A stretch of 40,055 nt of DNA, from NCBI GenBank assembly GCA_017848115.1, contig JAGAKZ010000014.1, positions 1 to 40,055 of the forward strand. Direction: 5' to 3'. Source of the DNA: Oscillospiraceae bacterium. GTDB taxonomy: Bacteria; Bacillota; Clostridia; Oscillospirales; Ruminococcaceae. A model generated the notes under the pieces. It saw only the letters and a program-made list of their open reading frames with translations, had not been told where the DNA came from and did not search any database. Within the stretch, counting starts at the first letter, position 1; each line of letters opens with the position of its first letter. A program made the position numbers and the translations under genes. Positions 19,640-36,746 of this stretch are shown in pieces.

Positions 19640-21013
19640 ATGGCTAAATCAAAAACACTTTATGTGTGCAGTAACTGCGGATTTGAAAGTTCAAAGTGGA
19701 ACGGAAGATGTCAGAATTGCGGAGAATGGAATACATTTGAAGAAACTCAGGCAGTATCTTCGTCAAAGGTCGTATCAGGCTTTTCTCAGCAGAGCAGAAG
19801 TCTGGTTGAAAAAATAGCAACTTTATCAGAAATAGATGTAGACAGTGATGTGCGTTATTATACTGGAGTTTCCGAGCTTGACCGTGTTCTCGGAGGCGGA
19901 CTTGTAAAAGGGTCGATAGTTCTTCTCGGAGGAGAACCGGGTATAGGAAAGAGTACTATACTTCTTCAGATATGTCAGTACATGGGTCAGGAACATTCTA
20001 TTCTGTATGTATCGGGAGAAGAATCAACAAGACAGATAAAACTTCGTGCCGACAGGCTTGGCGTAACAACCGAAAGCCTTTATCTTCTGGCGTCAAATGA
20101 CGTTGAATCAATATGCAGTACCATAGAAGAAAGTGAACCTGATATAGTGATCATTGACTCTATTCAGACTATGAGTCTGAGTCAGATAAGTTCAAGCCCC
20201 GGAAGTATAACTCAGGTCAGAGAATGCACAAATCTTTTTATGCATACGGCAAAGAAAAAGGAGATACCGATATTTATAGTAGGTCACGTAAATAAAGACG
20301 GCGCTATAGCAGGTCCTAAGGTCATGGAGCATATAGTAGATGCTGTTCTTTATTTTGAGGGTGAGAGACATCTGAGCTATCGTATACTCCGTGCTGTAAA
20401 AAATCGTTTTGGTTCTACAAATGAGATAGGTGTTTTTGAAATGCTTGACGTAGGGCTCCGACAGGTAGAAAATCCATCTGAAATGCTTCTTTCCGGAAGA
20501 CCTCACAATGTTTCGGGAACATGTGTTGCCTGTATAATGGAGGGTTCAAGACCTATTCTTGCCGAAGTTCAGGTGCTTGCTACAAAGAGCGGATTTGCGT
20601 CTCCAAGACGAATGACAACAGGTTTTGACTACAACCGCATGGCTATGATAGTAGCTGTTCTTGAAAAGCGAGCAGGACTTTTCTTCGGAACACTTGATAT
20701 ATATGTAAATATAGTAGGTGGTTTCAAGCTTGATGAACCGGCAGGTGATCTTTCGGTTGCGCTTGCTCTGCAGTCAAGTCTGCTCGATAAGCCTGTAAAT
20801 GAAAAAGTAATAGCATTCGGAGAAATCGGACTTGGCGGTGAGATACGTTCTGTATCACATATTCCCAATCGTATAAGAGAAGCAGAAAGAATGGGTTTTG
20901 AAATTTGTATAGTTCCGAAACAGACTCTTAAAGGTATAAATACTGAAAATTATAATCTTAAAATAATTGGTGTTACAAATATAAGACAGGCATTTGCCGC
21001 AGTAAACGAATAA
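19640..21013 (+). CDS. radA: DNA repair protein RadA
   Basis: RadA is a RecA-like ATPase that helps branch migration and processing of recombination intermediates. All hallmarks are present in 457 residues: an N-terminal zinc finger (Cys10, Cys13, Cys24, Cys27), Walker A GEPGIGKST (98-106), Walker B IVIIDSIQT, the RadA-specific KNRFG motif (254-258), and a C-terminal Lon-protease-like domain (DVGLR to the end). The AAAGGAG Shine-Dalgarno overlaps the mscS end. Length is standard. Confidence 0.97.
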   Translation: MAKSKTLYVCSNCGFESSKWNGRCQNCGEWNTFEETQAVSSSKVVSGFSQQSRSLVEKIATLSEIDVDSDVRYYTGVSELDRVLGGGLVKGSIVLLGGEPGIGKSTILLQICQYMGQEHSILYVSGEESTRQIKLRADRLGVTTESLYLLASNDVESICSTIEESEPDIVIIDSIQTMSLSQISSSPGSITQVRECTNLFMHTAKKKEIPIFIVGHVNKDGAIAGPKVMEHIVDAVLYFEGERHLSYRILRAVKNRFGSTNEIGVFEMLDVGLRQVENPSEMLLSGRPHNVSGTCVACIMEGSRPILAEVQVLATKSGFASPRRMTTGFDYNRMAMIVAVLEKRAGLFFGTLDIYVNIVGGFKLDEPAGDLSVALALQSSLLDKPVNEKVIAFGEIGLGGEIRSVSHIPNRIREAERMGFEICIVPKQTLKGINTENYNLKIIGVTNIRQAFAAVNE

Positions 21014-21037
21014 TATTTTTACACAGGAGAAATTAAC

Positions 21038-22336
21038 ATGAAATGTCCGGTATACAAAAAATGTTCAGGCTGTCAGTTACATAATCTTTCATACGAAGAA
21101 CAGCTTGAATTTAAACAGAACACAGCCCAGAGGTTACTCTCAAAGTTCGGAAAAGTTGAAGAGATAAAGGGAATGTACTACCCATACAACTATCGCAACA
21201 AAGCACAGGCAAGATTTATAACGGCACGAAACGGAAAAATAATATCAGGTATATATCAGTCAACGACAAACGGAATAGTATCAACTGATAGCTGTCTTAT
21301 AGAAGATAAAAAATCCGATGAAATTATAGTTTGCATAAGAGAGCTTATGAAAAAGTTCAAAATATCCACTTATGACGAATCAACAGGCACCGGATTTCTG
21401 CGTCATGTTCTTGTAAGAAGGGCATTTAAAACCGGAGAAATTATGGTAGTGCTTGCAGCGTTTACACCTATTTTGCCACACAAAAACGATTTTGTACATT
21501 TACTCCTTCAGACTCATCCGCAGATAAAGACCATAGTTCTTAATATCGCCGATGGAAAAGAAAATCTTGTGCTTGGTGACAGAGAGATAATTTTACATGG
21601 TGACGGATATATCGAAGATATTCTTTGCGGTCACAGATTCAGGATATCATCAAAATCATTTTATCAGATAAATCCGCAACAGACTGAAGTTCTCTACAAA
21701 AAAGCTATCGAGTACGCAAATCTTACAGGAAAGGAAACTGTAGTAGATGCATACTGCGGTATAGGTACAATAGGTCTTATAGCGGCAGACAAAGCACATA
21801 ATGTCGTTGCAGTCGAACTCAATAAGCAGGCAGTAAAAGATGCTATTGTGAATGCTAAGATCAATAAGGCGAAGAATATACGCTTTTATAATGAGGACGC
21901 AGGAGAGTTTATGGTGAAAATGGCACAGGAGGGCATGAAAGCAGATGTTCTGTTTATGGATCCTCCAAGAGCGGGCGCATCGGTTGAGTTTCTGAAATCA
22001 GCACTTAAACTTTCAGCGTCAAGGATAGTGTATATTTCATGCAATCCGCAGACACAGGCGAGAGATCTGGAGATTTTGGTCAAGGGCGGATATAAGGTTG
22101 ACATGATACAGCCTGTTGATATGTTTCCGCATACGAAGCACGTTGAGACGGTAGTACTTCTCTCCCACAAAGAAGTTGAAACCACAATCGACGTAAAAAT
22201 GGAGTTTGGTGAAGGTGAAGGAAAGTATTCGCTAAAAAAAATACAGGCGAAAGCTGAGAAGTTTAAGCCGAAAGAAAAAGTTACATACTCAAACTTCGCA
22301 GTTAAAAACTGCAAGTGCATCTTGAAAATTCAATAG
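21038..22336 (+). CDS. rumA: 23S rRNA (uracil-5-)-methyltransferase RumA/RlmD with foreign C-terminus
   Basis: This SAM-dependent enzyme makes m5U in 23S rRNA (the RumA/RlmD/RlmCD group). It has iron-sulfur ligands Cys3, Cys9, Cys12 and Cys86; the SAM site DAYCGIGTIGLIA; DPPRAG; catalytic Cys in YISCNPQT; and DMFPHTKHVETVVLLS near the normal end. After that motif it carries an extra tail (TTIDVKMEFGEGEGKYSLKKI to KEKVTY) like those added when mobile elements integrate in this gene. The tail should run on about 60 residues, but at 22286 it enters the left inverted repeat of an IS, which encodes the last 17 residues and the TAG. The catalytic part is complete, so the enzyme is probably active. 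Confidence 0.92.
   Translation: MKCPVYKKCSGCQLHNLSYEEQLEFKQNTAQRLLSKFGKVEEIKGMYYPYNYRNKAQARFITARNGKIISGIYQSTTNGIVSTDSCLIEDKKSDEIIVCIRELMKKFKISTYDESTGTGFLRHVLVRRAFKTGEIMVVLAAFTPILPHKNDFVHLLLQTHPQIKTIVLNIADGKENLVLGDREIILHGDGYIEDILCGHRFRISSKSFYQINPQQTEVLYKKAIEYANLTGKETVVDAYCGIGTIGLIAADKAHNVVAVELNKQAVKDAIVNAKINKAKNIRFYNEDAGEFMVKMAQEGMKADVLFMDPPRAGASVEFLKSALKLSASRIVYISCNPQTQARDLEILVKGGYKVDMIQPVDMFPHTKHVETVVLLSHKEVETTIDVKMEFGEGEGKYSLKKIQAKAEKFKPKEKVTYSNFAVKNCKCILKIQ
22286..22336 (+). repeat. IS left terminal inverted repeat
   Basis: The inverted partner is 23219-23269. The arm is read through by rumA and supplies its last codons and TAG. It contains the internal palindrome GCAGTTAAAAACTGC. Confidence 0.75.
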
Positions 22337-22352
22337 ATAGAGAAAAAAATAT

Positions 22353-22418
22353 AGTATGTAATCTCCAAAAATGTTATAATGAAAGTACCACCAATCACTA
22401 AAAAGGAGATTACATACT
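22353..22418 (+). promoter_or_regulatory. RBS-sequestering hairpin around the IS promoter
   Basis: A perfect 14-bp inverted repeat (22353-22366 with 22405-22418; 15 bp with the next T-A pair) spans the transposase promoter. The right arm contains the GGAG Shine-Dalgarno. A transcript from the internal promoter starts between the arms and leaves the site free. A read-through transcript from rumA carries both arms and would mask it. This is the logic known for IS10 and IS50. Confidence 0.6.
22372..22380 (+). promoter_or_regulatory. IS transposase promoter (extended -10)
   Basis: TGTTATAAT is an extended -10 element (hexamer 22375-22380), and the -35 region is poor. The predicted start near 22387 lies between the two arms of the hairpin. 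Confidence 0.55.
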
Positions 22419-23195
22419 ACGTCTGAAATTATAACACAAAAAGCAGAAGAAAACAAGCAAATTTCAGAAAGAATTAAAAGTTTTATGAAAAGATTTGAAG
22501 TTTCGTCTGCACTGAAATCATCCAATGCAGTTAAAATCAAAGGATTTGCTGTAATAGAGATATTTCAGTATCTTTTTATGCTAGTATTTGCACATCGTTC
22601 AATCTACATGGATATGAAAAGAGATACTGTACCGTTCGCTAAAGATACTGTATATCGTTTTCTTAATTCAGCACGTATAAACTGGCTTAAGTTCACAACC
22701 AGATTATCTGCAAAAATCATAGAAGAAGCTATAGAGCCTCTTACTTCAGAACAACGCAAAAATGTCCTGATAATTGATGATTCTGTTTTTGAAAGAAACC
22801 GTTCTAAAAAGGTTGAACTGCTCACTAAAGTTTTTGATCACGCAAAAAGAAAGTATTTTTACGGTTTTCGTATGCTTACACTAGGCTGGTCAGACGGAAA
22901 TACGTTTATGCCTGTAAACAGTGTTCTTTTGTCTTCAGAAAATGATAATACAGTAATGAATATTCCAGAAGAAATCGATAAGAGAAGTAATGCATACAAA
23001 AGAAGAAACCTGTCAAGAAGCAAAGCCACTGACGCTATGATCACACTTATCAAGGAAGCCAAAGCAGCCTGCATTAAAGCAAGCTATGTTTTATTTGATA
23101 GCTGGTTTGCTTCACCGGATTCGATATGTAAAATCAGAAATCTTGGATATGAAGCAATTCCAGATACGTTAAAAATCAAGTTAAAAGCTGCTTGA
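22419..23195 (+). pseudogene. IS4-like DDE transposase, C-terminally truncated and with a lost start codon
   Basis: The protein matches the DDE transposase type with FAKDTVYRFLNSARINW, VLIIDDSVFERNRSKKVELL, YGFRMLTLGWSDGNTF and YVLFDSWFASP, giving the first and second catalytic Asp. After LGYEAI it changes to an unrelated tail (PDTLKIKLKAA), so the third catalytic residue and about 40 percent of the protein are missing. The frame is open upstream of the first ATG (22485) and encodes SEIITQKAEENKQISERIKSF. The codon where the start should be is ACG (22419-22421). The hairpin partner strand implies T at 22420, that is, an ancestral ATG. It is inactive. Confidence 0.75.
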
Positions 23196-23218
23196 TTTAG
23201 TTACTTTTGCGGTACTTA

Positions 23219-23269
23219 CTATTGAATTTTCAAGATGCACAGTCATTTTTGATGTGCGAAGTTTGAGTA
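23219..23269 (+). repeat. IS right terminal inverted repeat
   Basis: Inverted partner of 22286-22336, with imperfect internal bases. It ends two bases before the helicase-derived reading frame becomes recognisable. Confidence 0.75.
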
Positions 23270-23470
23270 ATTATTACAAGAGATGTAGATGAACGAATTA
23301 CCCATAACATATTTTATACAGCAATCACACGCTCTAAGAAGGACTTGAAAATCTATTGGAGTCCGGAGACGCAGGAAAAGGTCATAAATGCGTTTGAGAT
23401 TTCTGATTCCAAGAAGGATGCGAGCATTTTTGCGGCACAGACAGGATTGAAGATGAAGAAGATTAAGTGA
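23267..23470 (+). pseudogene. C-terminal stump of a UvrD/RecD-like DNA helicase
   Basis: Directly after the IS the frame reads VIITRDVDERITHNIFYTAITRSKKDLKIYWSPETQ, without a start codon. The FYTAITRSKK stretch is the last helicase motif of the UvrD_C_2/RecD group (compare xYVAlTRAk). Only the final 67 residues survive; the ATPase core and everything before it was removed at the IS junction. The stop lies 21 bp before the next gene, with that gene's Shine-Dalgarno in between, so the helicase was once the upstream member of the same operon. Confidence 0.7.
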
Positions 23471-23491
23471 TTGCAAGAGGAGGTAGATTAA

Positions 23492-25531
23492 ATGCATTTT
23501 ACGATGAATTTAAATGGACAAGTAAATCAGATGCGACTTCCGAAAGCTAAAGCACTGTGGCCATTGTTTGAAACGATTGTCAATTCCATACAGTCATTGG
23601 AGGATATGAAAGAATGTGAGGAACCTACTGTAACGGTGGTTGCAAATCGCATAGATTATGGGCAGTTGACAACTGATGGAGAAGAGGAAATAAATCACTT
23701 TGAGAATTTTGTTGTAACTGACAATGGCGAGGGATTTACGGAAAAGAATTACAAATCATTTTTAGAGGCATATTCTACATTGAAAATTGCAAAAGGATGT
23801 AAAGGAATAGGAAGATTTTTGTGGCTCAAGGCATTTGCAAAAGTGGATGTCCGCAGTATTTATTATGAAAATGGAAAGTGGTATAAAAGAGAATTTGAGT
23901 TTTCCTTAAAGAAGGTAGTTGAACCTGAAGAGAATTGTATTGAAATCGAGCCTCCAGAGAATATGCAAAATTATACGCAGGTTTCATTGCGGGGATTTAA
24001 AAGTGATTATCGAGATGAAGTAGCATTATCTTTGGAAAGTTTAGCTAAAAAGATAATAGAGCATTGCTTGCCATACCTTATTATTGGTGGATGTCCTAAA
24101 ATTGTGATAGAGGATAATTTAGGTGAAAGATACATCCTGAATGAGTATTATAAAAATCTATATAAAGATACGTTACATAGAGATGATATTGTCATTAAAG
24201 GCAAGGCATTTTCTTTATATCACATGACTGTAAATGAAGGGGCAGAGAAACACGAATTGCATTTGTGTGCTAACAATAGAGAAGTTAAATCGTATGATTT
24301 GGCAAAATATATTCCTAACTTAGATAGAAAAATTGTAACAGATAAGCAATCATATTATTATGTAGGCTACATGACAGGAGCATATTTAGATGAATCCGTT
24401 AATTCTGAAAGGTTTGAATTTAGTTTTTCAGAAGCACCTTTGTTGGAGAGTATTGGAGAGCGTGAATTAACGGATGCTGCATTGGAATATATAAAAATAT
24501 ATCTAAGTGATGATTTGATTAAAATCAAAGATGAAAAGAAGAAACGCATAGATGAATTTGTAAGATGTAAAAAGCCACAATATAGATATTTGTTAAATCA
24601 TAGGAATGATGTCTATGATGAGATTCCGGTAGGTCTTTCTGATGAGAGGCTTGATTTAGAATTGTATAAACAAGAGCAGAAATGGGAGTTTGATATTGCA
24701 AAGCAAAAGACTCAAATAGAAGAAAAACAGAAGAATAGTGCTACCAATACAGAACAATTTATGGATTTATTTAACTCATATTGCTCAAGTGTTACACAAC
24801 TAAGTCAGGCGAGTTTGGCAGAATATGTTGTGAGAAGAAAAGCTGTAATCGATTTGCTTGAAAAGGCGTTGGAAATTACTGAAGCGGGAAGTTATAGTAA
24901 GGAATCACGATTGCATTCAATTATTTGTCCGATGCAGATTACATCAGATGAAGTACAGTTTGAGGAAATGAATTTGTGGTTGATAGATGATCGATTGGCA
25001 TATCATCAGTTTTTATCATCAGATCAGCCGATGAGAACACTTCCAGTATTGGAAAGTGATGTGATAAGAAGAATGGATATAGCAATTTTTGATAAAGCTA
25101 TATCATATTCGGCAGAAGAGGATGCAATCAATTCCATTACTATTGTAGAGTTGAAACGGCCTCAAAGAGATGATTTGGCTGCAGATGACAAAAATCCATT
25201 AAATCAGGTGTTGCGTTATGTGTCTGATATAAAAGCAGGTAAAGTGAAAAAGGCAAATGGTAGAGGTTTTGGTAATGTACAAAACGCAGCATTTTATTGT
25301 TATGTTATCGCTGATATAACAGATAGTCTTATTGAAGATGCAGAAAATGCAGGTTTAAATCGCACTCCGGATGGAGAGGGGTTTTTTGGATACAATACTC
25401 CAAGAGGTGCATATATAGAAGTTATTTCTTATGATAAACTTGTAAAGGATGCTAAAAAGAGAAATCAAGTATTATTTGATAAGTTATTTCGACCAAAAAC
25501 TGAACATATAATTGCGCTGAATGGAGATTAG
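23492..25531 (+). CDS. GHKL ATPase fused to a PD-(D/E)XK-like nuclease domain
   Basis: The 679-residue cytosolic protein has an N-terminal Hsp90/MutL-like ATPase: E27 and N31 in ETIVNSIQ, DNGEGF (77-82) and KGIGRF (104-109). The middle (about 180-470) is helical and charged. The C-terminal domain (about 470-679) shows RMDIAIF (Asp529), IVELKRP (Glu553, Lys555) and a following Gln572 in NQVLRYV. This is the D-ExK-Q order of a PD-(D/E)XK nuclease. ATG follows GAGGAGG. It is the first intact gene of the island and the former partner of the lost helicase. ATP-gated DNA cutting is a reasonable guess from the architecture; I do not know a named family. Confidence 0.75.
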   Translation: MHFTMNLNGQVNQMRLPKAKALWPLFETIVNSIQSLEDMKECEEPTVTVVANRIDYGQLTTDGEEEINHFENFVVTDNGEGFTEKNYKSFLEAYSTLKIAKGCKGIGRFLWLKAFAKVDVRSIYYENGKWYKREFEFSLKKVVEPEENCIEIEPPENMQNYTQVSLRGFKSDYRDEVALSLESLAKKIIEHCLPYLIIGGCPKIVIEDNLGERYILNEYYKNLYKDTLHRDDIVIKGKAFSLYHMTVNEGAEKHELHLCANNREVKSYDLAKYIPNLDRKIVTDKQSYYYVGYMTGAYLDESVNSERFEFSFSEAPLLESIGERELTDAALEYIKIYLSDDLIKIKDEKKKRIDEFVRCKKPQYRYLLNHRNDVYDEIPVGLSDERLDLELYKQEQKWEFDIAKQKTQIEEKQKNSATNTEQFMDLFNSYCSSVTQLSQASLAEYVVRRKAVIDLLEKALEITEAGSYSKESRLHSIICPMQITSDEVQFEEMNLWLIDDRLAYHQFLSSDQPMRTLPVLESDVIRRMDIAIFDKAISYSAEEDAINSITIVELKRPQRDDLAADDKNPLNQVLRYVSDIKAGKVKKANGRGFGNVQNAAFYCYVIADITDSLIEDAENAGLNRTPDGEGFFGYNTPRGAYIEVISYDKLVKDAKKRNQVLFDKLFRPKTEHIIALNGD

Positions 25532-25557
25532 CTTTATTAGTGGAAAGGAGGCAGCAG

Positions 25558-26988
25558 ATGAAACTTACAGATATGACAATTGAAGAAATGTGTACGACTA
25601 CAGAAAAGCAGTCATTTGACCGTAAGAGTGCAAAGATAGAAGCGACAGCAATTGCTACTCCGATGATTGCGTTTGCAAATGCAGACGGTGGACTCTTAGC
25701 TGTAGGTATTGAAGATAATGGCGAGATTACTGGAATTGATGATTATGCGAAGAATATCAATGAAATACTTCGTGCCGGATATGATTTTTGCCAGCCGTCT
25801 ATTTTCATTGAAAAGGAAGCAGTGGATTGCATTGATAAGAATGGAAATGCAAATCATATTTTACTTATTAAAATTCCGCAAAGTGCAGACATGCATGTAA
25901 ACCATAGAGATGAAGCGTTCTTGCGTGTTGGCGACAGGTCAAAGAAACTTACCTTTGATGAGCGTATGGAACTTATGTATTCTAAAGGAATGCGTTTTTA
26001 TGAGGACGAGCCTGTATATCGCAGTACATTAGATGATATTGATATGGAATTTGTTGCAAAGTATTGTGAGAAGATTGGCTACGGAAAGACTCCAGAAGAG
26101 TATATTAAGCAGAATAAAGATTATATTGTAAATGTTGCAGGTCGCCAAGAAATGAGCGGTGCCGCTATTATGATGTTTGGAAAAGAGCCGCAGAGATTTT
26201 TTCCAAGGTCACGAGTTCGTTTTATACGATATGAAGGTACAGAGGCAAAGGTCGGCGCAGAGATGAATGTTATTAAGGATAAGATGTTCCAAGGGCGTAT
26301 TCTTGATTTGGTAGAACAGACCATTGAGTATGTGAGAACACAGATTAAGGAGCATACTTATCTTGGACCAGATGCACGATTTGTGACAGAACCGGAATAT
26401 CCGGAATTTGCATGGAAAGAGATTATTGTAAATGCAATTGCACACCGTGATTACAGCATAAAGGGTACGGATATTCAGATCAAGATGTTTGATGACCATA
26501 TTACAGTGGAGAGTCCTGGAACACTTCCGGGGACTGTGCGACTTAATAATATGCGTGAGATACATTTTTCAAGAAATCCGAAAATGGCACAGCTTTTACA
26601 TGAGTATGAATATGTACGTGAGTTCGGTGAAGGCGTAGACCGTATGTATCGAGAGATGGAAGAGGCAGGTTTACCGGAGCCGGAGTATAAGACAGTTGCT
26701 TTCATGGTGCATGCTACGATTAAGAATAAGAAGTATCTTGTGGGTTCTGAAGCGACAACTCCACAAGTTAACCCACAAGATAAAAAACAAGTTACTCCAC
26801 AAGATAAAATATTGGAATTTTGTAAAATTCCACGAAGTAAGAATGAAATCGTTGCTTATATGGGCTATAAAGATCCAAGATATTTTACGAAAGAGTATAT
26901 GAAGCCGTTACTTAAAAATGGGGAACTGGTAATGACAATACCAGATAAACCTAATAGCAAAAATCAAAAGTATGTGACTAAGAAGTAG
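25558..26988 (+). CDS. AlbA_2/Schlafen-type ATP-binding protein with winged-helix tail
   Basis: The 476-residue protein has an N-terminal AlbA_2 (Schlafen-like) domain (about residues 8-130: FDRKSAKIEATAIATPMIAFANADGGLLAVGIEDNGEI). The HATPase_c_4 region follows (WKEIIVNAIAHRDYS, then the SPGTLPG and EFGEGVDRM segments). A Gln/Pro/Thr-rich linker (TTPQVNPQDKKQVTPQDK) leads to a C-terminal winged helix. Proteins of this build are usually annotated as transcriptional regulators or ATP-binding proteins and are frequent in defence islands. ATG 25558 is placed behind AAAGGAGG. It is 26 bp after the nuclease gene and 42 bp before the sacsin-like gene, so one operon is likely. Confidence 0.85.
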   Translation: MKLTDMTIEEMCTTTEKQSFDRKSAKIEATAIATPMIAFANADGGLLAVGIEDNGEITGIDDYAKNINEILRAGYDFCQPSIFIEKEAVDCIDKNGNANHILLIKIPQSADMHVNHRDEAFLRVGDRSKKLTFDERMELMYSKGMRFYEDEPVYRSTLDDIDMEFVAKYCEKIGYGKTPEEYIKQNKDYIVNVAGRQEMSGAAIMMFGKEPQRFFPRSRVRFIRYEGTEAKVGAEMNVIKDKMFQGRILDLVEQTIEYVRTQIKEHTYLGPDARFVTEPEYPEFAWKEIIVNAIAHRDYSIKGTDIQIKMFDDHITVESPGTLPGTVRLNNMREIHFSRNPKMAQLLHEYEYVREFGEGVDRMYREMEEAGLPEPEYKTVAFMVHATIKNKKYLVGSEATTPQVNPQDKKQVTPQDKILEFCKIPRSKNEIVAYMGYKDPRYFTKEYMKPLLKNGELVMTIPDKPNSKNQKYVTKK

Positions 26989-27030
26989 CGTTGTATCTAA
27001 GAAACATTTGCAAAAAGGTGTGATTAAAAG

Positions 27031-30000
27031 ATGAAACTTGATGAAGAAATACTTAAAGGAAAGCAATATATCGATAAATTGAGACGAGAATATATTGAGA
27101 ATCATACTCGCTTTCAGGAACGTGATGAACTTATTGCCGAAAACAATATAGAAAAAAGAGATATAAAGGGATATCATGGACGCGAAATACTTGAATTATT
27201 ACAAAATGCAGATGATGCTTACCAAAAGAGTATTGATAAAGGGGAGAAGCCTCGATGTGAGCTTAAAGTAACTATTTGCTATAAGGGGAATGTTTTAACT
27301 GTTACAAATACAGGAACTTGCTTTGATGAAGCAGGAATTAAGGCAATTGTACATGGAAATAATAGTCCTAAATCAGGAAAATACATTGGAAACAAGGGGA
27401 CAGGATTTAGATCTGTCTTAAATTGGGCAGAAAAGGTTAGAATATTTTCGGGGAACTATAATGTTGAATTTTCTAAAGAAATAGCCGAGAAAATTCTTGA
27501 AGAATACAAGGAGAATCCTCAGATAAAAAAGCAAATACAGAAGAACAAGAACCTCTATATTCCCATGTTGGCAGTTCCGGTTTATATTGAGAATGGTAGA
27601 TATAATGACACCACAACTATAGAGGTTGTTATTGATTCGATGAAATTAAATGACGATTTTTCTGTGTCTATGCAAATTAAGAATATAGACCTTAGAATAC
27701 TGTTGTTTCTCCCTAATATTAGCCAGATTGAAATTATTACGGATGATAATTGTATAGTTTATAGAAGAAATAATAATCAAGGTGTTGCAGAGAGTATTAC
27801 CTTGGAAAAAATTGTTGATGAAAACGTGGAAATGCAAGAGGAGTTTTACCTTTATAGAAAAGTAATTACTAATGCAATTGAGGAAGATGAAGTTTTGAAA
27901 GATATTCAGCTTTCTATTGCAGTACCTCTTGACATGGATACATTTATGAGCAGATATATTTATTCGTATTTTCCTTTGTTGGATACGGAATCACCTTTTA
28001 ATTGTGTTTTGCATGCATCATATGCACTTGGAGATCACAGGAACACGGTTAATGTTAGCAAAGAGAATAAAAAAATAATAGAAGAGCAGTTATTGTTTTT
28101 AGTTGAGGTTGCCAATCAATTTGTAGATAAAGAACAGTATGATATTGCATATAATCTTTTAATTCCTACTAATTTTTCAAGTAACAAGTGGAGATTTACT
28201 TCTCCATTTGCAAAGTTTGAACTAGAGGATTACTATTTGGAAATATTATCAGAACAGAAAATTTTCCGAACTGTAAATGATGAAAATATTTCAGTTAAAG
28301 ATAAACCTAAGATGATAAGTGGAAATTATCCAGAGTTTTTCAGAGATAAAGGATTTGAAGGTTTATTGAACTCCTTGTTAGACAATAGGATGATATCGTT
28401 GATTGAAATACTAGCAAAGAGAAAAGAAATTGATTTATATTTTGAAGAGAACGAATTGTTACTGATTATTAATTCGCTTTCTAATGATTGGGATATAAAA
28501 AAACAAGTTGAAACATTTGTGTGGTGGAATACGAGATATAGAAAGTCAATTCCTAATTTGTTAAAAACACAAGAGCATAAATGGCTAAAATATCAAGAAG
28601 AATGTTATTTTCTAATCGGTGATTTTGATGAAAAAGGGTTACCGTCTTGGGTTAAAATACCGGCACTACATAAAGAGTATCAACAAGAATTATTCAATAG
28701 AGCCGAGGGATTACAGGAAGTAATAAGTATAAGAGAAAGAGATAAGGAACCACAGATCTCACGTATTATTTGTCAAAATAATATATTTCCGACAATTAAT
28801 TTTAAATACAGAGATCGTAGCAATATCATATCAACAGTAAATTCATCTGTGGACACATACAATAAGGCGATTGATTTTGTAAAATGGTTATGGGGAAATT
28901 ATAGAAAAGAAGTTGATTGGAATCCGCCGGGGCGTACAGAAGGAACAAGATTTAAATATATTTTTCCTAATGCGAGAGATAAGAGTACCCAAGATAGTGA
29001 AAAATTATTTTGGGGATTACAATACAACAATTTTTTAGCGGAAAAATTGTTTGATAATAGCTTTGGTCAGTTTCCACAAATAGAGGTTTTCAATATTAGT
29101 GTAGAGGAGAGTGCTGCGTTTCAAGAATTTATAAGTAAGTATGGTGTTAGGAAGTATCCTGTAATAGAAGTACAAAATGTATACCCGTTGGATTCGTATT
29201 CAAATGAATATGAAAATGAAATAAAATTACATGGGGATATAGGTTGTTCAACAACTGTTACTTGTAGGTATCAATTACCATACATTAAGAATCTTGTAGA
29301 TTTATTAAGGAAATTATCAACTCGAGAAATTGTTGAATGGATAATTAAAGATTCAGAACTTTATGTTTGTTTGAGTAGTCCATTCTATTTTCAAAATGCA
29401 AAAATATCTTATTATGGTAGCCGACAACAAGTAAAACGTTATTATTGGGATAAAATAAAAAATTACATTTTGGAAGTGTTTAATGAGGTTAGATGGATTG
29501 AAATCGAAGACAAAAGGTATTCGCCAAGACAAATTTTGCAGAATTTTAGGTCTAGAAACAATCAAAGATTTGTTGGCATTGTTCCTGTTATTAGCATAGA
29601 GATGCTGGAAAAGATAGCAGAAGAATTGCATGTAGACATAGGTGTAGTGCAAGAGATTTTTAATAAATTTAGTTTTGGAGATAAGATTACAGATTTGAGT
29701 TCGGAAGACTTTTATGGTTTAATGCTGCGACTTCCGGAGTTAGATTTTTCACGTAGTGCCGAATTATCAAAAGCTATATATAGAATTATTGAGCAACCAG
29801 CGTTTTCGAGAAAATTTGAAAACTCTGATAACAAAAATAGGTTTTTTGTTGAAGGCAAGATATTAGTCAAATATAAAGGGCAGTTGCAGTATGTTTTAGC
29901 AAAAAATGCTTACCTTCCAAGTTCAAAAATAATAAGTAAAAAGAATGTTCCAATAGTTGAAAAGGGACAAAGAACCAATAACAGAAATTTTGTTACATTA

Positions 30001-31617
30001 TTTGGATGTCAGGAGTATACTAAGGAGTATACTGTTGACCCTGGTAGTGTTTCTATTAGTGATGCAAACAGTAGTTTTCAACAATATTATCAAGATTTTA
30101 AGAAGTATGCTCGTGCTTATGCAGAGAATAATGATAATATAGAAAAGTATGGTAAGAATCTGAATATTACACTAGTGAATAGAATTGTAATATTAGAAGT
30201 TGGGAATCGAGTCACAATTGATGAAGAATATATGTGCATTCGTGATACTATGACAAATTGGTACATAACTGTGTTTGGTAAAGAATTTGATGTCAATACT
30301 GTTTCTGAAATAATAGAAAATATTTATACAAACATAGCGAATACACCCGGTTTTGAGGCGAGTAAGCTAGGTGAATTATTTAGAACAAAAGATAATAGTA
30401 ACAGGGAGTTTTTGATAAAAAAAGATTTTGGTTCATTAAGTGTTATAGAGGATGCATCTTACCAAAATGAAATTAGAAATAACTTCATAAAAGTGCTTAA
30501 AATTATTGCACCAACATATGAGATTGATAAAATCACGATTGATTTTGAAAATTTCTTTAGTAATAAAAATGGAGCTTGTATTATTAGTTTGTTCAAAGAA
30601 ATAGAGACAGACATTGAAGAATTTAGAAATAAGGGATTTGTGTATAATTTGGACTTGGTTCCATATTTTTGCGAAGTACTTAAAAATTTTCTTCAAATGG
30701 AAAAGAGAAGGTTTAAAGATTATTTGTTTACACGAGCGAAGTTGGATGACAAGTTACAAAAGGACTTTGTTAGTACGGTTTATAGATTTGAGCAATTTTC
30801 AATTCCTGAGTATATAAATTCTGTTATGTTTAGTGTTGAAGATAAAGTTGTTGAGACTTTTGGTGAATGGAGAACTTCTGAAGATGTATTTTCTGCAAAT
30901 GATGAGTATGTAAAGAATTATGAAAAAATGAATCCTCAAAAGCTGTATGAAGATGAAATTTCTAATGATGTGAACACACAACAAATGATTTACTTTGGGA
31001 AAGAAAAAGCGTTCAATGAATGGGTAGAATCACATAAAAAGTTAGAGGAAACAAATAATATGTCGGAGAATCCTTATTCAAGATATATAGAGGTGGTACC
31101 GAAGGTTAATGAGGTTTCATATAATCAAGGCGCAAATGCTACAGGAGGAGCTAATACTGGTAACAGGAATAATAAATCAATAGGAACTTATACTCAAAGC
31201 CTTGACGAAAAACGTAATAGAAACAAAAAAATACTTGGTAATAAAGGCGAGTTGTTAGTTTATAATTTGCTTTGTAAACGGGTTGGAAAAGAAAATGTGT
31301 TTCCTAGATCAGAAGCTTTTATTGAATTAGGAATCATAAAACCAGGTCAAGCTGTATCTGGAGGATATGATATTTCATATTATGGTGAAGATGGAATAGA
31401 GTATTTTGTAGAAGTAAAAACTGGCGACGGGAAAAGTTTTATTATTTCACCTGGAGAACTTCAATATGCGAAAGATAATGCAGAAAAGTATAAGCTGATT
31501 ATTGTTTATGATGTAGATGTGGAGGAACCTAAGTGTATGGAGTTACCAATGAGGTTTTGGGAAGATTCAAAATTTAGAAAGAGAGAAATTGTAGAAAGAA
31601 TTGAATTTGAATTTTAG
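27031..31617 (+). CDS. Giant sacsin-like ATPase with C-terminal DUF3883 nuclease-like domain
   Basis: The 1528-residue protein starts with a sacsin/Hsp90-type ATPase: GYHGREILELLQNADDA (Glu55, Asn59), VTNTGTCFDEAGIKAI and GNKGTGFRSVLNW (120-132). About 1200 residues of middle region follow that I cannot assign; they are Lys/Asn/Glu-rich with no membrane segments. A Gly/Asn-rich linker (about 1355-1375) leads to a DUF3883 domain (about 1385-1528): NKGELLVYNLL, GYDISYY, YFVEVKTG and FIISPGELQYA. The Asp and ExK pattern is that of restriction-endonuclease-like folds. Related proteins sit in restriction and defence neighbourhoods. The gene is intact, without stops over 4.6 kb, so it is under selection or recently acquired. 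Confidence 0.82.
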   Translation: MKLDEEILKGKQYIDKLRREYIENHTRFQERDELIAENNIEKRDIKGYHGREILELLQNADDAYQKSIDKGEKPRCELKVTICYKGNVLTVTNTGTCFDEAGIKAIVHGNNSPKSGKYIGNKGTGFRSVLNWAEKVRIFSGNYNVEFSKEIAEKILEEYKENPQIKKQIQKNKNLYIPMLAVPVYIENGRYNDTTTIEVVIDSMKLNDDFSVSMQIKNIDLRILLFLPNISQIEIITDDNCIVYRRNNNQGVAESITLEKIVDENVEMQEEFYLYRKVITNAIEEDEVLKDIQLSIAVPLDMDTFMSRYIYSYFPLLDTESPFNCVLHASYALGDHRNTVNVSKENKKIIEEQLLFLVEVANQFVDKEQYDIAYNLLIPTNFSSNKWRFTSPFAKFELEDYYLEILSEQKIFRTVNDENISVKDKPKMISGNYPEFFRDKGFEGLLNSLLDNRMISLIEILAKRKEIDLYFEENELLLIINSLSNDWDIKKQVETFVWWNTRYRKSIPNLLKTQEHKWLKYQEECYFLIGDFDEKGLPSWVKIPALHKEYQQELFNRAEGLQEVISIRERDKEPQISRIICQNNIFPTINFKYRDRSNIISTVNSSVDTYNKAIDFVKWLWGNYRKEVDWNPPGRTEGTRFKYIFPNARDKSTQDSEKLFWGLQYNNFLAEKLFDNSFGQFPQIEVFNISVEESAAFQEFISKYGVRKYPVIEVQNVYPLDSYSNEYENEIKLHGDIGCSTTVTCRYQLPYIKNLVDLLRKLSTREIVEWIIKDSELYVCLSSPFYFQNAKISYYGSRQQVKRYYWDKIKNYILEVFNEVRWIEIEDKRYSPRQILQNFRSRNNQRFVGIVPVISIEMLEKIAEELHVDIGVVQEIFNKFSFGDKITDLSSEDFYGLMLRLPELDFSRSAELSKAIYRIIEQPAFSRKFENSDNKNRFFVEGKILVKYKGQLQYVLAKNAYLPSSKIISKKNVPIVEKGQRTNNRNFVTLFGCQEYTKEYTVDPGSVSISDANSSFQQYYQDFKKYARAYAENNDNIEKYGKNLNITLVNRIVILEVGNRVTIDEEYMCIRDTMTNWYITVFGKEFDVNTVSEIIENIYTNIANTPGFEASKLGELFRTKDNSNREFLIKKDFGSLSVIEDASYQNEIRNNFIKVLKIIAPTYEIDKITIDFENFFSNKNGACIISLFKEIETDIEEFRNKGFVYNLDLVPYFCEVLKNFLQMEKRRFKDYLFTRAKLDDKLQKDFVSTVYRFEQFSIPEYINSVMFSVEDKVVETFGEWRTSEDVFSANDEYVKNYEKMNPQKLYEDEISNDVNTQQMIYFGKEKAFNEWVESHKKLEETNNMSENPYSRYIEVVPKVNEVSYNQGANATGGANTGNRNNKSIGTYTQSLDEKRNRNKKILGNKGELLVYNLLCKRVGKENVFPRSEAFIELGIIKPGQAVSGGYDISYYGEDGIEYFVEVKTGDGKSFIISPGELQYAKDNAEKYKLIIVYDVDVEEPKCMELPMRFWEDSKFRKREIVERIEFEF

Positions 31618-31665
31618 GTTTCTCAAAAGCGTAATGATTCTAAGAAATGGAGTGATGTTGAGGCG

Positions 31666-31695
31666 TATGTTCCCGACATTAATATCGGGAACATA
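31666..31695. repeat. 30-bp near-perfect palindrome after the giant ATPase gene
   Basis: Arms of 11 bp (TATGTTCCCGA at 31666-31676 and its complement at 31685-31695) flank ATTAAT, with one mismatched pair. There is no T-run, so it is more likely an operator or structured RNA than a terminator. Its outer 8-mer recurs at 31728-31735 and 31766-31773. The surrounding gap 31618-31962 has no gene that I can support. Confidence 0.6.
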
Positions 31696-31791
31696 CCTTG
31701 AGTGTATGGGAGTAATCAATGAAATACGGAACATACATAACTATAGAAAGAACTACTTTCTTCGATATGTTCCCTTTAACAGTAAAACTCC

Positions 31792-31821
31792 TTGATTTAT
31801 TCCCTTATACTTCGGTACAAT
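31792..31821 (+). promoter_or_regulatory. Promoter of the PD-(D/E)XK-like gene
   Basis: TTGATT (31792-31797) and TACAAT (31816-31821) with an 18-bp spacer. Transcription should begin near 31828, just before the 26-bp repeat, so the leader RNA begins with the repeat-derived hairpin. Confidence 0.5.
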
Positions 31822-31832
31822 AAATTAAGACA

Positions 31833-31858
31833 GACATCAAATCGGAACAATCGAGCCA
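31833..31858 (+). repeat. 26-bp direct repeat, copy 1
   Basis: Identical over 26 bp to 33532-33557. It starts GACATCAAATCGG and ends CGAGCCA. The two copies enclose a single gene. Confidence 0.85.
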
Positions 31859-31876
31859 AGTGCTCGATATTGATGT
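31833..31876 (+). promoter_or_regulatory. Leader hairpin formed by repeat copy 1 and following bases
   Basis: The repeat can fold on its downstream bases. Outer arms are GACATCAA and TTGATGTC; the inner stem is TCGAGC and GCTCGA around a CAAGT loop, with an internal bulge on the left side. It would form at the very 5-prime end of the transcript. Confidence 0.45.
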
Positions 31877-31962
31877 CAGAGGTAGTTTTTGAGGGAACAA
31901 GTCTAGAAAAGGACGTTGGGAATGTTTGTTCTGAATTGATGGTAATATACAGAGGAGAAACG

Positions 31963-33510
31963 ATGAACAAATTTGAATATTTATATCATAGGAAGCAGCA
32001 ATTAGAAAAAGAAATTGCAAAAAATGATTTGTTTAAATTAAGTAAGAAAGACGCAATCCAGTGTGTAATGATAAAAGTGGGTATGATGTATTCTTTTTTT
32101 CATATAGACCATGATAAAAAACAAGAATATATGAAAAGGCTAATAGGGACGAATGCGACATATATCGATGAAATTACTTTTTTTCAAGAGTCGCTAAAAT
32201 GGATATGTAGGTGGTGTTCGGAATATTGTGCTGATGAGAGCAAGTATAATGAAAAAATATTAGCAGAACAAGTATATGAATTAATGGGATTAGCATATGC
32301 ATACAACGAATTTATTAAATATTCCTTTTATCACAGTAAACACGTAGTATCTCACAATACAATTGGAAATAGTATACAGTTTGATTATATAAATGAGGAG
32401 AGTCACCAAGTTCATGAGTTATATGATACATTGAATCGAAAGAGTTCTGAAGGAAGAGCATTTTTAGACAGTTTTGGTAAGAGTATAAATGTGTCTGGTG
32501 TGAAAGCAATAGAAATTGTTCATAGAAGTGACTTTAGTTTTAATTACAATTTTAACTTTGGAAAATTTTCTTTAAAAGATTATGAAGAGATTTCTGTTGC
32601 GTTGAATAATTACGTAATGAGAAAAATGCTTAATAGCCATGTGTTGATTCCTGGAGAGGCAGGTATTTCTATATGGGAAAAAGAAGAGCTAGTTAAGATG
32701 TTAGCTGAAGAATCAGGAATAGCCAAAGAAAAAGTGGAAGAAGTGATTGATTTCTTTCAATATGATACAAGAGATAAAAATGCAGACTTGTCATTGAATT
32801 ACTTTTTCGAATTGGATAATAATAGAATAATGCTTTCAGACGCAATATTTAGTATGCAAAGACCAGCGACTAACGCTTTAAGAATTTTAGCAAAACATCA
32901 GTCTAAATTATTTGAGAAAGAACAAAATATGTTTGAAATAGAGCAGAAAAACAGGATAAAAGATATTGTAGAAGAAAGATTTTTAGTTGCCAAGAATTTG
33001 ACTAAAGAACAGGAAATAAGACCAGGAATGGATATGCTGGTGTATGACAGGGTTCATAATCATTTGCAGGTATTGGAATTAAAGTATAAAATTCCGGTTG
33101 ATTCTGAAAGAGACATAACTAATTTAGATGAGATGTTGGAAAAGGCATATACACAGCTGGAATGGGCAAAGAAATATGTCGATGAACATGAAGACATATT
33201 AGAAGAGTATTTCGGCGCTGAGTATATAGGAATAACTCCTAAGACAGTAGATTGCTTTGTGGTAACAAATTATACGATTGGAACGGGAGCAAGTTGTCAA
33301 TTGCCTTCTCCTATTTTATTGGAGGAACACTATTTACAATTGATGCAGAATGATGTGGGAATGCAGCATGTTCATAAAGCACTTCACGACAAGAAAAAAT
33401 GTACTGTTGGAGAGATAAAAAAGCGTTACGCTAGATATCGTTTAGTTGATTTCAAAATCAAGATTCCAGAAACACTAATGGTAGTAAAGGGTGGGGGTAA
33501 TATGGTTTGA
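31963..33510 (+). CDS. PD-(D/E)XK-like nuclease-domain protein of unknown family
   Basis: I do not recognise the 515-residue protein as a whole. Residues 1-230 are helical, rich in Lys, Tyr and His, with no membrane segment. Near the C-terminus it shows PGMDMLVYD (Asp357, Asp362), LQVLELKYK (Glu372, Lys374) and a following YTQLEWAKKYV (Gln398). This is the D-ExK-Q order of restriction-endonuclease-like folds. ATG 31963 follows AGAGGAG; the frame is open from further upstream but passes through the promoter and the direct repeat. The gene is the only one between the 26-bp repeats and has its own promoter, so it looks like a one-gene insertion or cassette. Confidence 0.65.
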   Translation: MNKFEYLYHRKQQLEKEIAKNDLFKLSKKDAIQCVMIKVGMMYSFFHIDHDKKQEYMKRLIGTNATYIDEITFFQESLKWICRWCSEYCADESKYNEKILAEQVYELMGLAYAYNEFIKYSFYHSKHVVSHNTIGNSIQFDYINEESHQVHELYDTLNRKSSEGRAFLDSFGKSINVSGVKAIEIVHRSDFSFNYNFNFGKFSLKDYEEISVALNNYVMRKMLNSHVLIPGEAGISIWEKEELVKMLAEESGIAKEKVEEVIDFFQYDTRDKNADLSLNYFFELDNNRIMLSDAIFSMQRPATNALRILAKHQSKLFEKEQNMFEIEQKNRIKDIVEERFLVAKNLTKEQEIRPGMDMLVYDRVHNHLQVLELKYKIPVDSERDITNLDEMLEKAYTQLEWAKKYVDEHEDILEEYFGAEYIGITPKTVDCFVVTNYTIGTGASCQLPSPILLEEHYLQLMQNDVGMQHVHKALHDKKKCTVGEIKKRYARYRLVDFKIKIPETLMVVKGGGNMV

Positions 33511-33531
33511 TAAATTGTTAGTAAAAAAAGG

Positions 33532-33557
33532 GACATCAAATCGGAACAATCGAGCCA
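33532..33557 (+). repeat. 26-bp direct repeat, copy 2
   Basis: Exact copy of 31833-31858. Here it reads in frame (DIKSEQSS) straight into the rumA-type HVETVVLLS segment, whereas copy 1 is followed by unrelated bases. Confidence 0.85.
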
Positions 33558-33876
33558 TGTTGAGACTGTTGTTCTTCTTTCCCAACTCCGACAGAAACCG
33601 GATGATTATATTGAAGTAGATATTGATGTGATCGAGTTAGAGGGTACAGCCGTAGAGAGCAAAGCGACCTACGACCAGATTAAGAAATATGTTTTTGAGC
33701 AGACTGGTTTAAAGGTTTCTAATCTTTATATTGCGCAGACGAAGAAAAAGTGTGGATTGGAATTGGGAGAGAATTTTAATCTGCCTAAATCGGAAAATGC
33801 AAAGCAACCACAATGTCCGGAGGATAAGGAAAGAGCGATTGTGGAGGCGTTGAAGTATTTTAAAATGGTAGAGTGA
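33538..33876 (+). pseudogene. Detached rumA-type C-terminal tail (mobile-element end)
   Basis: The frame encodes SSHVETVVLLSQLRQKPDDY, then ESKATYDQIKKYVFEQTGLKVSNLYIAQ and QPQCPEDKERAIVEALKYFKM. This is the tail sequence that accompanies element-disrupted 23S rRNA uracil methyltransferase genes. It has no methyltransferase domain in front and no good start; a small protein from TTG/ATG near 33628 is possible. The KATYDQIKKYV...GLKVSNLYIA part is homologous to the tail interrupted by the IS in rumA (KEKVTY). It marks the right edge of the island. Confidence 0.6.
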
Positions 33877-33950
33877 TTGTGAAGCTATGAATATAAATGT
33901 TTTAATAGGGTAATATTGAGACTCAAATTTGAAGTCTGTGGAGGAGTGAC

Positions 33951-34406
33951 ATGTTGATAAAAGAGTGTACAAATCAAGATGTTCCGCAATTGGCATTGAT
34001 GAATAAACATCTGATTGAGGATGAAAAAAGTAGTAATCCTATGAGTGTTGCAGAACTGGAAAGTAGAATGAGTGATTTCATAAATGATGACTATAATGCC
34101 TATTTTTTCATTGAAGATGAAACAATCTTGGGATATGCACTAATAAGGCATACTTCAACACCGCCATATTTACGTCAGTTCTATATTGAAAGGGATTTTA
34201 GACGCAAGCATCATGGAAAACAAGCATTTTATCAACTAATGGAATACATACAAGCAGATACAATTGATATTGATGTATTACCATGGAATGAGAGAGGACA
34301 CTCATTTTGGAAAAGTTGCGGATTTGATGATACATGTATCCACAGACCAAAGTGTGGGAAACTTGTACACCGTATTTTGAAAAGAGAAATATTCATTTTT
34401 ATGTAA
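33951..34406 (+). CDS. GNAT-family acetyltransferase with altered C-terminus
   Basis: The 151-residue protein has the GNAT fold: [33 protein letters not shown] (acetyl-CoA loop R-R-K-H-H-G-K) and [19 protein letters not shown] as motif B. After TCIH the last 20 residues ([19 protein letters not shown]) do not fit. The DNA there belongs, in another frame, to the end of a different GNAT gene, so a deletion has joined two genes. GGAGGAG precedes the start. The substrate is unknown; activity is possible because the core is complete. Confidence 0.78.
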
Positions 34407-34525
34407 ATAAGTGTGGATTTCATATTGTGGAGTTTTGGAACGAAAAGAATCCAGACCCGAATATGCCAATGGATTTTGTGGGTGATGGAAAGGAAGGAAT
34501 GTTTCGTTTTCAGAAGAAAATGTAG
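34338..34525 (+). pseudogene. C-terminal fragment of a second GNAT acetyltransferase
   Basis: In the frame of 34334 the text [26 protein letters not shown] followed by [11 protein letters not shown] and GMFRFQKKM is the usual last third of a GNAT enzyme. It overlaps the altered end of the upstream acetyltransferase in another frame. The acetyl-CoA site is missing. Confidence 0.6.
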
Positions 34526-34549
34526 AATTTGAATTTGATGGTGTTTTAT

Positions 34550-35065
34550 ATGAGAACAACGAATGTTATTGTTCTGCCTTATGACAGAGCATGGAAATCT
34601 TCTTTTGAAAAAATAAAAAAGGAAATTGAAGGTGTAATCGGTGATTTGATTGTTGATATTGAACATGTTGGAAGTACATCAGTTGAAGGACTTTCTGCTA
34701 AACCTTGTATTGATATTGATGTAGTAATCAAAGATTATTCGGTATTTGAAGATGTTGTTCAAAAATTAGAAACGATTGGCTATATATACGAGGGTGATCT
34801 TGGAATCAAGGATAGGGAAGCGTTTAATTACTCAAATAAACCACATTTGCAAACGCACCATTTATATGTGTGTCCACAGTATTCAGAGGAATTACATCGG
34901 CATGTTACATTTAGAGATTTTTTAGTAAATAATAACGAAGCAGTAAAAAAATATAGTCTAGTAAAGGAGACGGCTGCAAAACTATTTCCAAATGATATTG
35001 AGAAATACATAGAATACAAATCGCCTTGCATTGAAGAATTATACAAACAATGTGGGTTGAAATAA
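34550..35065 (+). CDS. GrpB/UPF0157 family protein
   Basis: The 171-residue cytosolic protein has the GrpB-family nucleotidyltransferase-like signature: VLPYDRAWKSSFEKIKKEI, then IEHVGSTSVEGLSAKPCIDIDVVI, HHLYVCP and FRDFLVNN. Members often occur as accessory genes or fused to CoaE; no defined reaction is established for the stand-alone form. The frame is open from 34529. I chose ATG 34550 because the conserved text begins right after it, though no strong Shine-Dalgarno precedes either start. Confidence 0.85.
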   Translation: MRTTNVIVLPYDRAWKSSFEKIKKEIEGVIGDLIVDIEHVGSTSVEGLSAKPCIDIDVVIKDYSVFEDVVQKLETIGYIYEGDLGIKDREAFNYSNKPHLQTHHLYVCPQYSEELHRHVTFRDFLVNNNEAVKKYSLVKETAAKLFPNDIEKYIEYKSPCIEELYKQCGLK

Positions 35066-35180
35066 TTTAGCAAATTTCAGGCTTCTGTTGAGTCTGAAAG
35101 CACGCGAAGATTGGAAGTTTTACATGAGTAAGCAGGCGAAGTTGGATTATGTATATTACGAAAAAAATAAGGAGAACATT

Positions 35181-36017
35181 ATGTCAGTACAAACAGATTT
35201 CGAGAAAGAATTTGAAACAGAAGAATATGAAATGCTTATTTTAGTACAAGCATCATGTGGGGGAGCAGTATGTATAAAAGATATGCTGAAACCATCAGTT
35301 GATTTTCTTGCATCCATAGATTTGCGCAATGGTCAGTTTTTTCATGAGAAAGGCCATGTTGAATGGCTTATAAAAGAAGATAATAAACGTAAGGGGTGGG
35401 GATATGATTTTGAGCAATTTGGTATTTATCGTGTCGTTGTTAGGAAATGCATACCTCAAAAATTACAACCATATCAATTACATTATATGAACAACAGATA
35501 TATGCTAATAAGAGTACTGGAAGAAAATGCTTCAAACGAAAAATTGGAAGCATTGAAGGAACATTATTCAAAACCTATTTCTACGGAAAACGAATTAGGT
35601 ACTTTTGTTTTGGATAGAGAGTTTTCGTGGTTTGAAGGAAGTATAAATTGGAATGGTGTAGAGGCAACTGTATATTTGGAAACAGACGAAGAAGATGGAG
35701 ATACTGCTGAACAGGCAATGGCTGTCCTAAAAAGTGTAATTGAGAATATTGTGGATAACGATAATAAGTATCGTGAGTTTGCGGCGCAAGAACTTACAGG
35801 ACTTGCAAATGAGTGGTTGAGTGAATCAGATGAAAGCGATGTAGAAGAAATTACACAAGAAACATTTGCTAAACGTATGGAAATTAGTGAAGTAACAGTT
35901 AGTCCCGATGGAAGCTTGTCATTACTTTATCATGACGATGATATGTTTTGGGGGCATGTTATAGAAATAATAGTTGAGCCAAATGGTGAAATTACAAGTG
36001 CTAATATAGCTGGATAA
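35181..36017 (+). CDS. DUF2262 domain protein
   Basis: The C-terminal half carries the DUF2262 pattern: GTFVLDREFSWFEGSINWNGVEATVYL, LANEWLSE, FAKRMEISEVTVSPDGSLSLLYHDDDMFWGHVIEI and ITSANIAG. The function of this domain is unknown; it is frequent among polymorphic-toxin and accessory gene neighbourhoods. I start at ATG 35181, 6 nt after a perfect AAGGAG. The frame is open from 35088 (KAREDWKFYMSKQAK...), which could be a longer form or the leftover of another gene. The product is 278 residues. Confidence 0.78.
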   Translation: MSVQTDFEKEFETEEYEMLILVQASCGGAVCIKDMLKPSVDFLASIDLRNGQFFHEKGHVEWLIKEDNKRKGWGYDFEQFGIYRVVVRKCIPQKLQPYQLHYMNNRYMLIRVLEENASNEKLEALKEHYSKPISTENELGTFVLDREFSWFEGSINWNGVEATVYLETDEEDGDTAEQAMAVLKSVIENIVDNDNKYREFAAQELTGLANEWLSESDESDVEEITQETFAKRMEISEVTVSPDGSLSLLYHDDDMFWGHVIEIIVEPNGEITSANIAG

Positions 36018-36105
36018 ATTAAAAAATCAAGCGTCATACAAGATTATTAGCATACCTAACTTTCAGTAATAATGAGAGATGAATTTGAAGTTGTAGAGGT
36101 ATTAC

Positions 36106-36723
36106 ATGAGTAATCCGTGGGAAAAAATAGAATTAAGTGATTATGAAAATCATATGAGTTTAGAAAACGTTTATCAGTTACAAATTTTGAATAAAATGAT
36201 GCAAGAACAGTTCGAGACTTATGACATTAATACAATAATGATTCTCGGAATAGCAGGTGGAAATGGATTGGAGCATATTGATAAAAGTAAAATTAAGAAA
36301 GTATATGGAATTGATGTTAATCAGGAATTTTTAATTGAATGTAAAAAACGTTACAAAGAGTTGGGAGATATATTTGAAACAATTTGTACGGATTTATTGG
36401 ATGACAATTTACAACTGCCATGTTCGGATTTCCTTGTGGCTAATCTTTTGGTTGAATATATAGGTTATGAATGCTTTCAGAAGATTGTTAGATTAGTAAA
36501 ACCGTTATATATATCTTGCATTATACAAATAAATACTGGTGATTCTTTTGTATCAGATTCACCGTATATACATGCATTTGATTGTTTGGAGGAAGTCCAT
36601 CACCAGATGGAAGAAAAAAATTTAATTGATTGTATGGCTAAGATTGGTTATCAGATTAAACAAACGATGGATGAAGAATTGCCAAATGGGAAAAAATTTA
36701 TAAGATTAGACTTTATTCGATAA
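36106..36723 (+). CDS. Class I SAM-dependent methyltransferase-like protein
   Basis: The 205-residue protein has a Rossmann-type SAM site: IMILGIAGGNGLEHI, the acidic residue after strand 2 in VYGIDVNQEF, and ICTDLLDD, then DFLVANLLVEYI. No substrate-specific motif is evident. GAGG precedes the ATG, and the AATTTGAAGT leader motif (36082-36091) lies 14 nt upstream. It is probably an accessory small-molecule or protein methyltransferase. Confidence 0.78.
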   Translation: MSNPWEKIELSDYENHMSLENVYQLQILNKMMQEQFETYDINTIMILGIAGGNGLEHIDKSKIKKVYGIDVNQEFLIECKKRYKELGDIFETICTDLLDDNLQLPCSDFLVANLLVEYIGYECFQKIVRLVKPLYISCIIQINTGDSFVSDSPYIHAFDCLEEVHHQMEEKNLIDCMAKIGYQIKQTMDEELPNGKKFIRLDFIR

Positions 36724-36746
36724 ATTCCAATTTGTAGGTGAGATAA

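Follow-up and report, generated by a model that had tools for sequence, protein, structure and literature searches.

The window, a stretch of 40,055 bases that makes up one entire contig of a draft genome (108 contigs, 81% complete), carries at the 3' end of rlmD what we read, with a probability of about 0.78, as a partly eroded defence island: a series of presumably independent anti-phage genes that all point in one direction. These genes look like stand-alone defences that have already been described, not like the parts of one new multi-gene system. Genes 1-3 of the row are co-directional and separated by gaps of 8-42 bp, with strong ribosome sites on genes 1 and 2. The positions of the genes and the GHKL-type ATPase domains of three of the proteins, which had been proposed from the DNA alone, were confirmed; the proposed defence-like content was also borne out. 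Genes 1 and 3 each fit a described stand-alone defence.

The rlmD/rumA-type 23S rRNA methyltransferase gene (21038..22336, + strand) keeps its own body up to HVET (22139) and then runs into a different tail. The stretch HVETVVLLS occurs twice, at 22139 and at 33556, and at the second site RlmD comparison identified a displaced rlmD 3' tail (33556..33876, + strand; HVETVVLLSQ...YFKMVE), with 53% identity across 105 residues to the C-terminal end of a same-genus RlmD (L045). The gene cluster sits between rlmD and this displaced tail. When RlmD ends were compared at 12 of 15 RlmD loci, the window included, seven stopped within about 15 residues past HVE, which is an ordinary end, and five, including that of the window, continued with differing tails. 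RlmD tails thus vary, but the strong evidence for an island comes from a sister genome (G241). There, the window's 20522-22158 and 34034-36979 lie in order on one contig, at 98.4% and 98.9% identity respectively, and are 42 bases apart; the intervening 11.9 kb (22159-34033), missing from the rlmD site of this genome, is therefore variable. Gene 1, gene 3 and P0004, a further frame of the island, had no match anywhere in G241. G241 does not offer a clean empty site: the start of the next gene is missing there too, and the site carries its own short tail.

Serine-integrase elements that sit in streptococcal rumA and exchange its 3' part are described in PMC4701971. Like these rumA/rlmD elements, the island lies in the 3' part of the gene and comes with an exchanged tail, the old 3' tail being displaced as in an rlmD-targeting element; unlike them, it showed no integrase. 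Using Pfam on the six main + strand frames between 22.4 and 33.5 kb, we found no site-specific recombinase, only the IS transposase. With no serine integrase among these frames, we do not file the island as an rlmD-targeting integrative element; it is at most a remnant of one. The closest relative of gene 1 (locus L002) is likewise found downstream of rlmD, in this case one whose end is near HVETCVLL, and between the two is a recombinase frame that, by eye, reads as a serine recombinase. We infer that an integrase once placed the island at rlmD.

The left end of the island holds an IS4-type element with 22-bp inverted ends (22315..23240). Against a model of 449 positions, its transposase frame (22485-23195, 236 aa) matches positions 9-236; inspection by eye showed no matching target duplication, and the same genome has two partial IS matches besides this copy. 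Beside the element, on its left, the tail of rlmD is cut off at KVTY. This tail, up to KVTY, has matches in 3 of 118 other family genomes; at one locus (L063) it continues 66 residues past the window's KVTY end, at another (L064) it also continues past this point but has an earlier stop codon inside the tail, and at L065 it is broken. To the right of the IS there remain 67 codons of the C-terminus of a RecD-like (UvrD_C_2) helicase (23267..23470, + strand). Since both truncations lie at the IS, most of the helicase was likely removed by a deletion with one end at the element. The original prediction had likewise attributed the loss to an IS event, and the shortened sequence on both sides agrees with it. 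The helicase would have belonged to a neighbouring module and have been lost in this deletion.

Gene 1 (23492..25531, + strand) encodes a GHKL ATPase fused to a PD-(D/E)xK nuclease, an assignment that draws on motifs, a predicted model and published descriptions. The GHKL domain scores below the cut-off in Pfam alone; a predicted model and fold comparison give the N-terminus a GHKL fold, and the GHKL ATPase motifs are invariant in 15/15 aligned sequences. The same holds for the D-ExK-Q nuclease residues. The invariant nuclease residues are E471, D529, E553 and K555 (15/15 aligned sequences); read by eye, E471 would be the first E of an E-D-ExK motif, in a nuclease domain whose model is of low confidence. 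PMC2292703 (2008) describes paraMORC3, in which GHKL and S5 domains are joined to an E-D-ExK nuclease at the C-terminus; a subset of these proteins stands alone. According to PMC12137116, VcSduA, which has the same GHKL plus nuclease build, protects against phages and requires both E27 and K557 for defence; that paper assigns it to Shedu type I-D.

Gene 1 shares with VcSduA and paraMORC3 the N-terminal GHKL ATPase and the C-terminal PD-(D/E)xK nuclease. Its catalytic glutamate and ExK lysine fall at nearly identical numbers to those of VcSduA, E27 and K555 matching E27 and K557 by position (the VcSduA numbers being taken from PMC12137116 alone); in two Vibrionaceae relatives of gene 1, the corresponding residues are E27 and K556. 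Gene 1 differs from both in being tightly packed with two further ATPase genes. It also differs from Shedu in that SduA_C is not recognised in it, the likeness to VcSduA coming from the paper's description and the residue numbers. The SduA_C model matched 0/15 members of the gene-1 family at E 0.01, and an hhalign comparison between gene 1 and a protein of the Shedu kind (SduA_C 90.8 bits) was weak (E 0.01, probability 4%), although its alignment does pair the ExK motif, one glutamine and the final strand. We therefore label gene 1 paraMORC3/VcSduA-like, a known kind that it fits, and take the Shedu name from the paper. PADLOC matched neither gene 1 nor any of the 15 gene-1 sequences, and a search against sequences of solved structures gave chance-level matches only (best E 0.42). 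By analogy with VcSduA, an ATP-driven GHKL clamp dimer would most likely control the C-terminal PD-(D/E)xK nuclease, which would attack phage DNA directly.

Gene 2 (25540..26988, + strand) encodes, according to profile searches, a protein with SLFN_AlbA_2, HATPase_c_4 and Fic-like_C regions. Both AlbA_2 and HATPase_c_4 are clear in Pfam, and the protein scores 434 bits against PHROG 12156, which is labelled DNA helicase. A sequence search of solved structures returned one uncharacterised protein (3lmm). PADLOC models for pAgo/Aga proteins gave 149 bits at best, which we took to be off-target. Counting gene 2, HATPase_c_4 occurs at 10 places in its own genome; one or two such places were found in 16 of 60 other genomes of the family. 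We accordingly rejected gene 2 as a specific partner, and because of the same counts the presence of an AlbA_2-type neighbour may be due to chance. Gene 2 encodes a protein of a common type, probably a nucleic-acid-binding regulator or accessory.

Gene 3 (27031..31617, + strand) encodes a sacsin-type ATPase with a C-terminal NOV_C/DUF3883 region and is a near-full-length match to the PADLOC TmtA profile, which we take to be Tiamat. The best model, PDLC03964, gave 994 bits over residues 11-1520 (profile positions 10-1528 of 1538), and PADLOC reported six TmtA models and PDC-S36 in all. Of the island's genes, PADLOC thus recognised gene 3, as TmtA, and returned nothing for gene 1 or P0004. The DUF3883 region keeps a D...ExK pattern (GYD 1445, VEVK 1460); a table in PMC3710099 lists DUF3883 as a novel REase domain. 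At E 1e-30 the TmtA model matched in 3 of 397 other phylum genomes, once at full length, and this sole full-length relative is 23-25% identical to gene 3 over two matched stretches. The protein itself had no match at E 1e-10 in 391 other family genomes. No TmtA was found in phages or, in a search for close relatives only, in viral contigs; 15 plasmid records matched, every one partially. In G789, the relative of gene 3 adjoins type I R-M-like genes, with neither gene 1 nor gene 2. Gene 3 resembles Tiamat in its near-full-length profile match, sacsin-type ATPase and DUF3883 region, and differs in standing third in a row. On sequence grounds, it fits the known TmtA/Tiamat kind. Its sacsin/Hsp90-like ATPase would most likely control its own C-terminal DUF3883 nuclease.

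Directly after gene 3 we read by eye a palindrome, GTATGTTCCCGA...TCGGGAACATAC (31665..31696), that is possibly a transcript end, though it has no T run; it was absent from the list of a terminator scan. Further ATGTTCCC-like stretches lie downstream of it. Beyond is P0004 (31792..33510, + strand), a frame of 572 codons with a likelier start at ATG 31963 and a PD-(D/E)xK-like pattern, GMD...LELK. Pfam, NCBIfam, PADLOC and PHROGs gave nothing above chance for it, and it had no relatives in plasmids, in 246 other family genomes or, in a search for close relatives only, in viral contigs. P0004 is flanked by two copies of a 26-bp direct repeat on the + strand (31833..31858, and 33532..33557, which runs into the rlmD tail), which possibly mark a second, stacked insertion at the rlmD site.

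Relatives of gene 1 were found in 59 plasmid records, in one phage record and in 1 of 395 other family genomes, where the stretch examined was 3.4 kb. The two closest named relatives come from Lachnospiraceae bins and the third from an Oscillospiraceae bin, which would make a Lachnospiraceae host probable. The neighbours of 20 relatives vary: annotated ones include type I R-M, Shedu, SAVED and AbiE, reading by eye added type III R-M-like and DUF1156/DUF499-like genes, and some loci have no defence genes; the plasmid loci L066 and L071 carry no annotation. In the viral contig L027, the relative lies, by eye, amid phage structural genes; at L027:7896-13214, it adjoins a large methylase-like gene. 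On a Vibrio plasmid, a type I R-M operon is followed by two overlapping genes, one a Shedu gene with an SduA_C score of 90.8 bits and the other a gene-1 relative (L008:8610-12004). Among the helicase loci, a RecD-like helicase of a Lactiplantibacillus plasmid (L036:2710-7320) is paired with an ATP-binding protein of GHKL-like reading, and at L033:3184-8125 a caspase-like and two TIR-like frames were seen by eye upstream of a RecD-like helicase.

The original prediction had regarded the row as one unnamed system with the helicase first. By blastp (E 1e-4), we screened the frames of 31 loci for genes 1-3, P0004 and the remnant of the helicase: 20 gene-1 loci (3/3 genome contigs, 2/2 viral contigs, one family genome and 14/59 plasmid records), 3 TmtA-type loci, two of which are short matches, and 8 helicase-tail loci (3/3 genomes and 5/7 plasmid records). 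The four-gene order did not recur at any of them, and at these loci the proposal of a single helicase-first system is not supported. Neither TmtA nor the RecD-like helicase lies near gene 1 (0/20), neither gene 1 nor gene 2 occurs at the TmtA-type loci (0/3), and neither gene 1 nor TmtA at the helicase loci (0/8). A gene-2 relative was found at 2/20 gene-1 loci, as the next gene in L002 and about 6 kb off in L003, a count in which blastp would overlook distant AlbA_2 proteins; at one helicase locus (L035), such a relative lies about 3.7 kb from the helicase. These counts speak against genes 1-3 being one composite system, in which genes 1 and 3 would be nuclease effectors, the AlbA_2 protein a sensor or regulator, and the helicase would once have fed DNA. 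In favour of this unlikely reading, the short gaps and single direction of the genes point to a shared transcript, and that could in turn mean a shared function. L002 also fits it: there the next gene after the gene-1 relative (80% identity) is a relative of gene 2 (24% identity), and the one after that reads by eye like a helicase. PMC2292703 describes, as a theme, predicted operons that combine GHKL ATPases with helicases and nucleases. The window resembles the MORC/paraMORC restriction operons of that account in having GHKL ATPases beside a helicase and nucleases; theirs, as described there, have SFII helicases and often methylases, whereas the window has a RecD-like stump and no methylase. 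A narrower version, to which we give still less credence, is that a Lachnospiraceae GHKL-Shedu nuclease, the adjacent AlbA_2/HATPase_c_4 protein and a helicase form an unnamed composite defence moving between rlmD sites, with one damaged copy, joined to TmtA, in the window and a further copy in L002. No description of a row of genes 1-3 with a helicase was found in the literature searched. A named multi-gene system was also rejected, PADLOC having returned nothing for gene 1 and P0004, TmtA/PDC-S36 for gene 3 and pAgo/Aga for gene 2.

It is about as doubtful as that narrower version that the genes remaining after the IS deletion are no longer expressed. The helicase remnant, the transposase frame shorter than its model and the cut rlmD tail would suit such decay, as would the 50 promoter-like sites, no more than in shuffled sequence (mean 54.1, sd 6.9). 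Against it, the frames of genes 1-3 and P0004 are long and open, their motifs are intact, and ribosome sites on genes 1 and 2 are strong. That the junctions are an assembly error is very improbable: the genome is fragmented and incomplete and the contig is no longer than the window, but both flanks match a single G241 contig in order at 98-99%, and the island genes are closely packed in one direction. We retain the reading of a partly eroded stack of separate defences. By analogy with VcSduA, they would most likely be independent nuclease defences under ATPase control.

Gene 1 adds a gut Clostridia example to the GHKL-Shedu family, and beside it stands P0004, a nuclease-like gene that is nameless in all four protein libraries. 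If our reading is right, the window would show how, in a gut bacterium, known single-gene defences can accumulate at rlmD and how a stack of this sort can be worn down by an IS.
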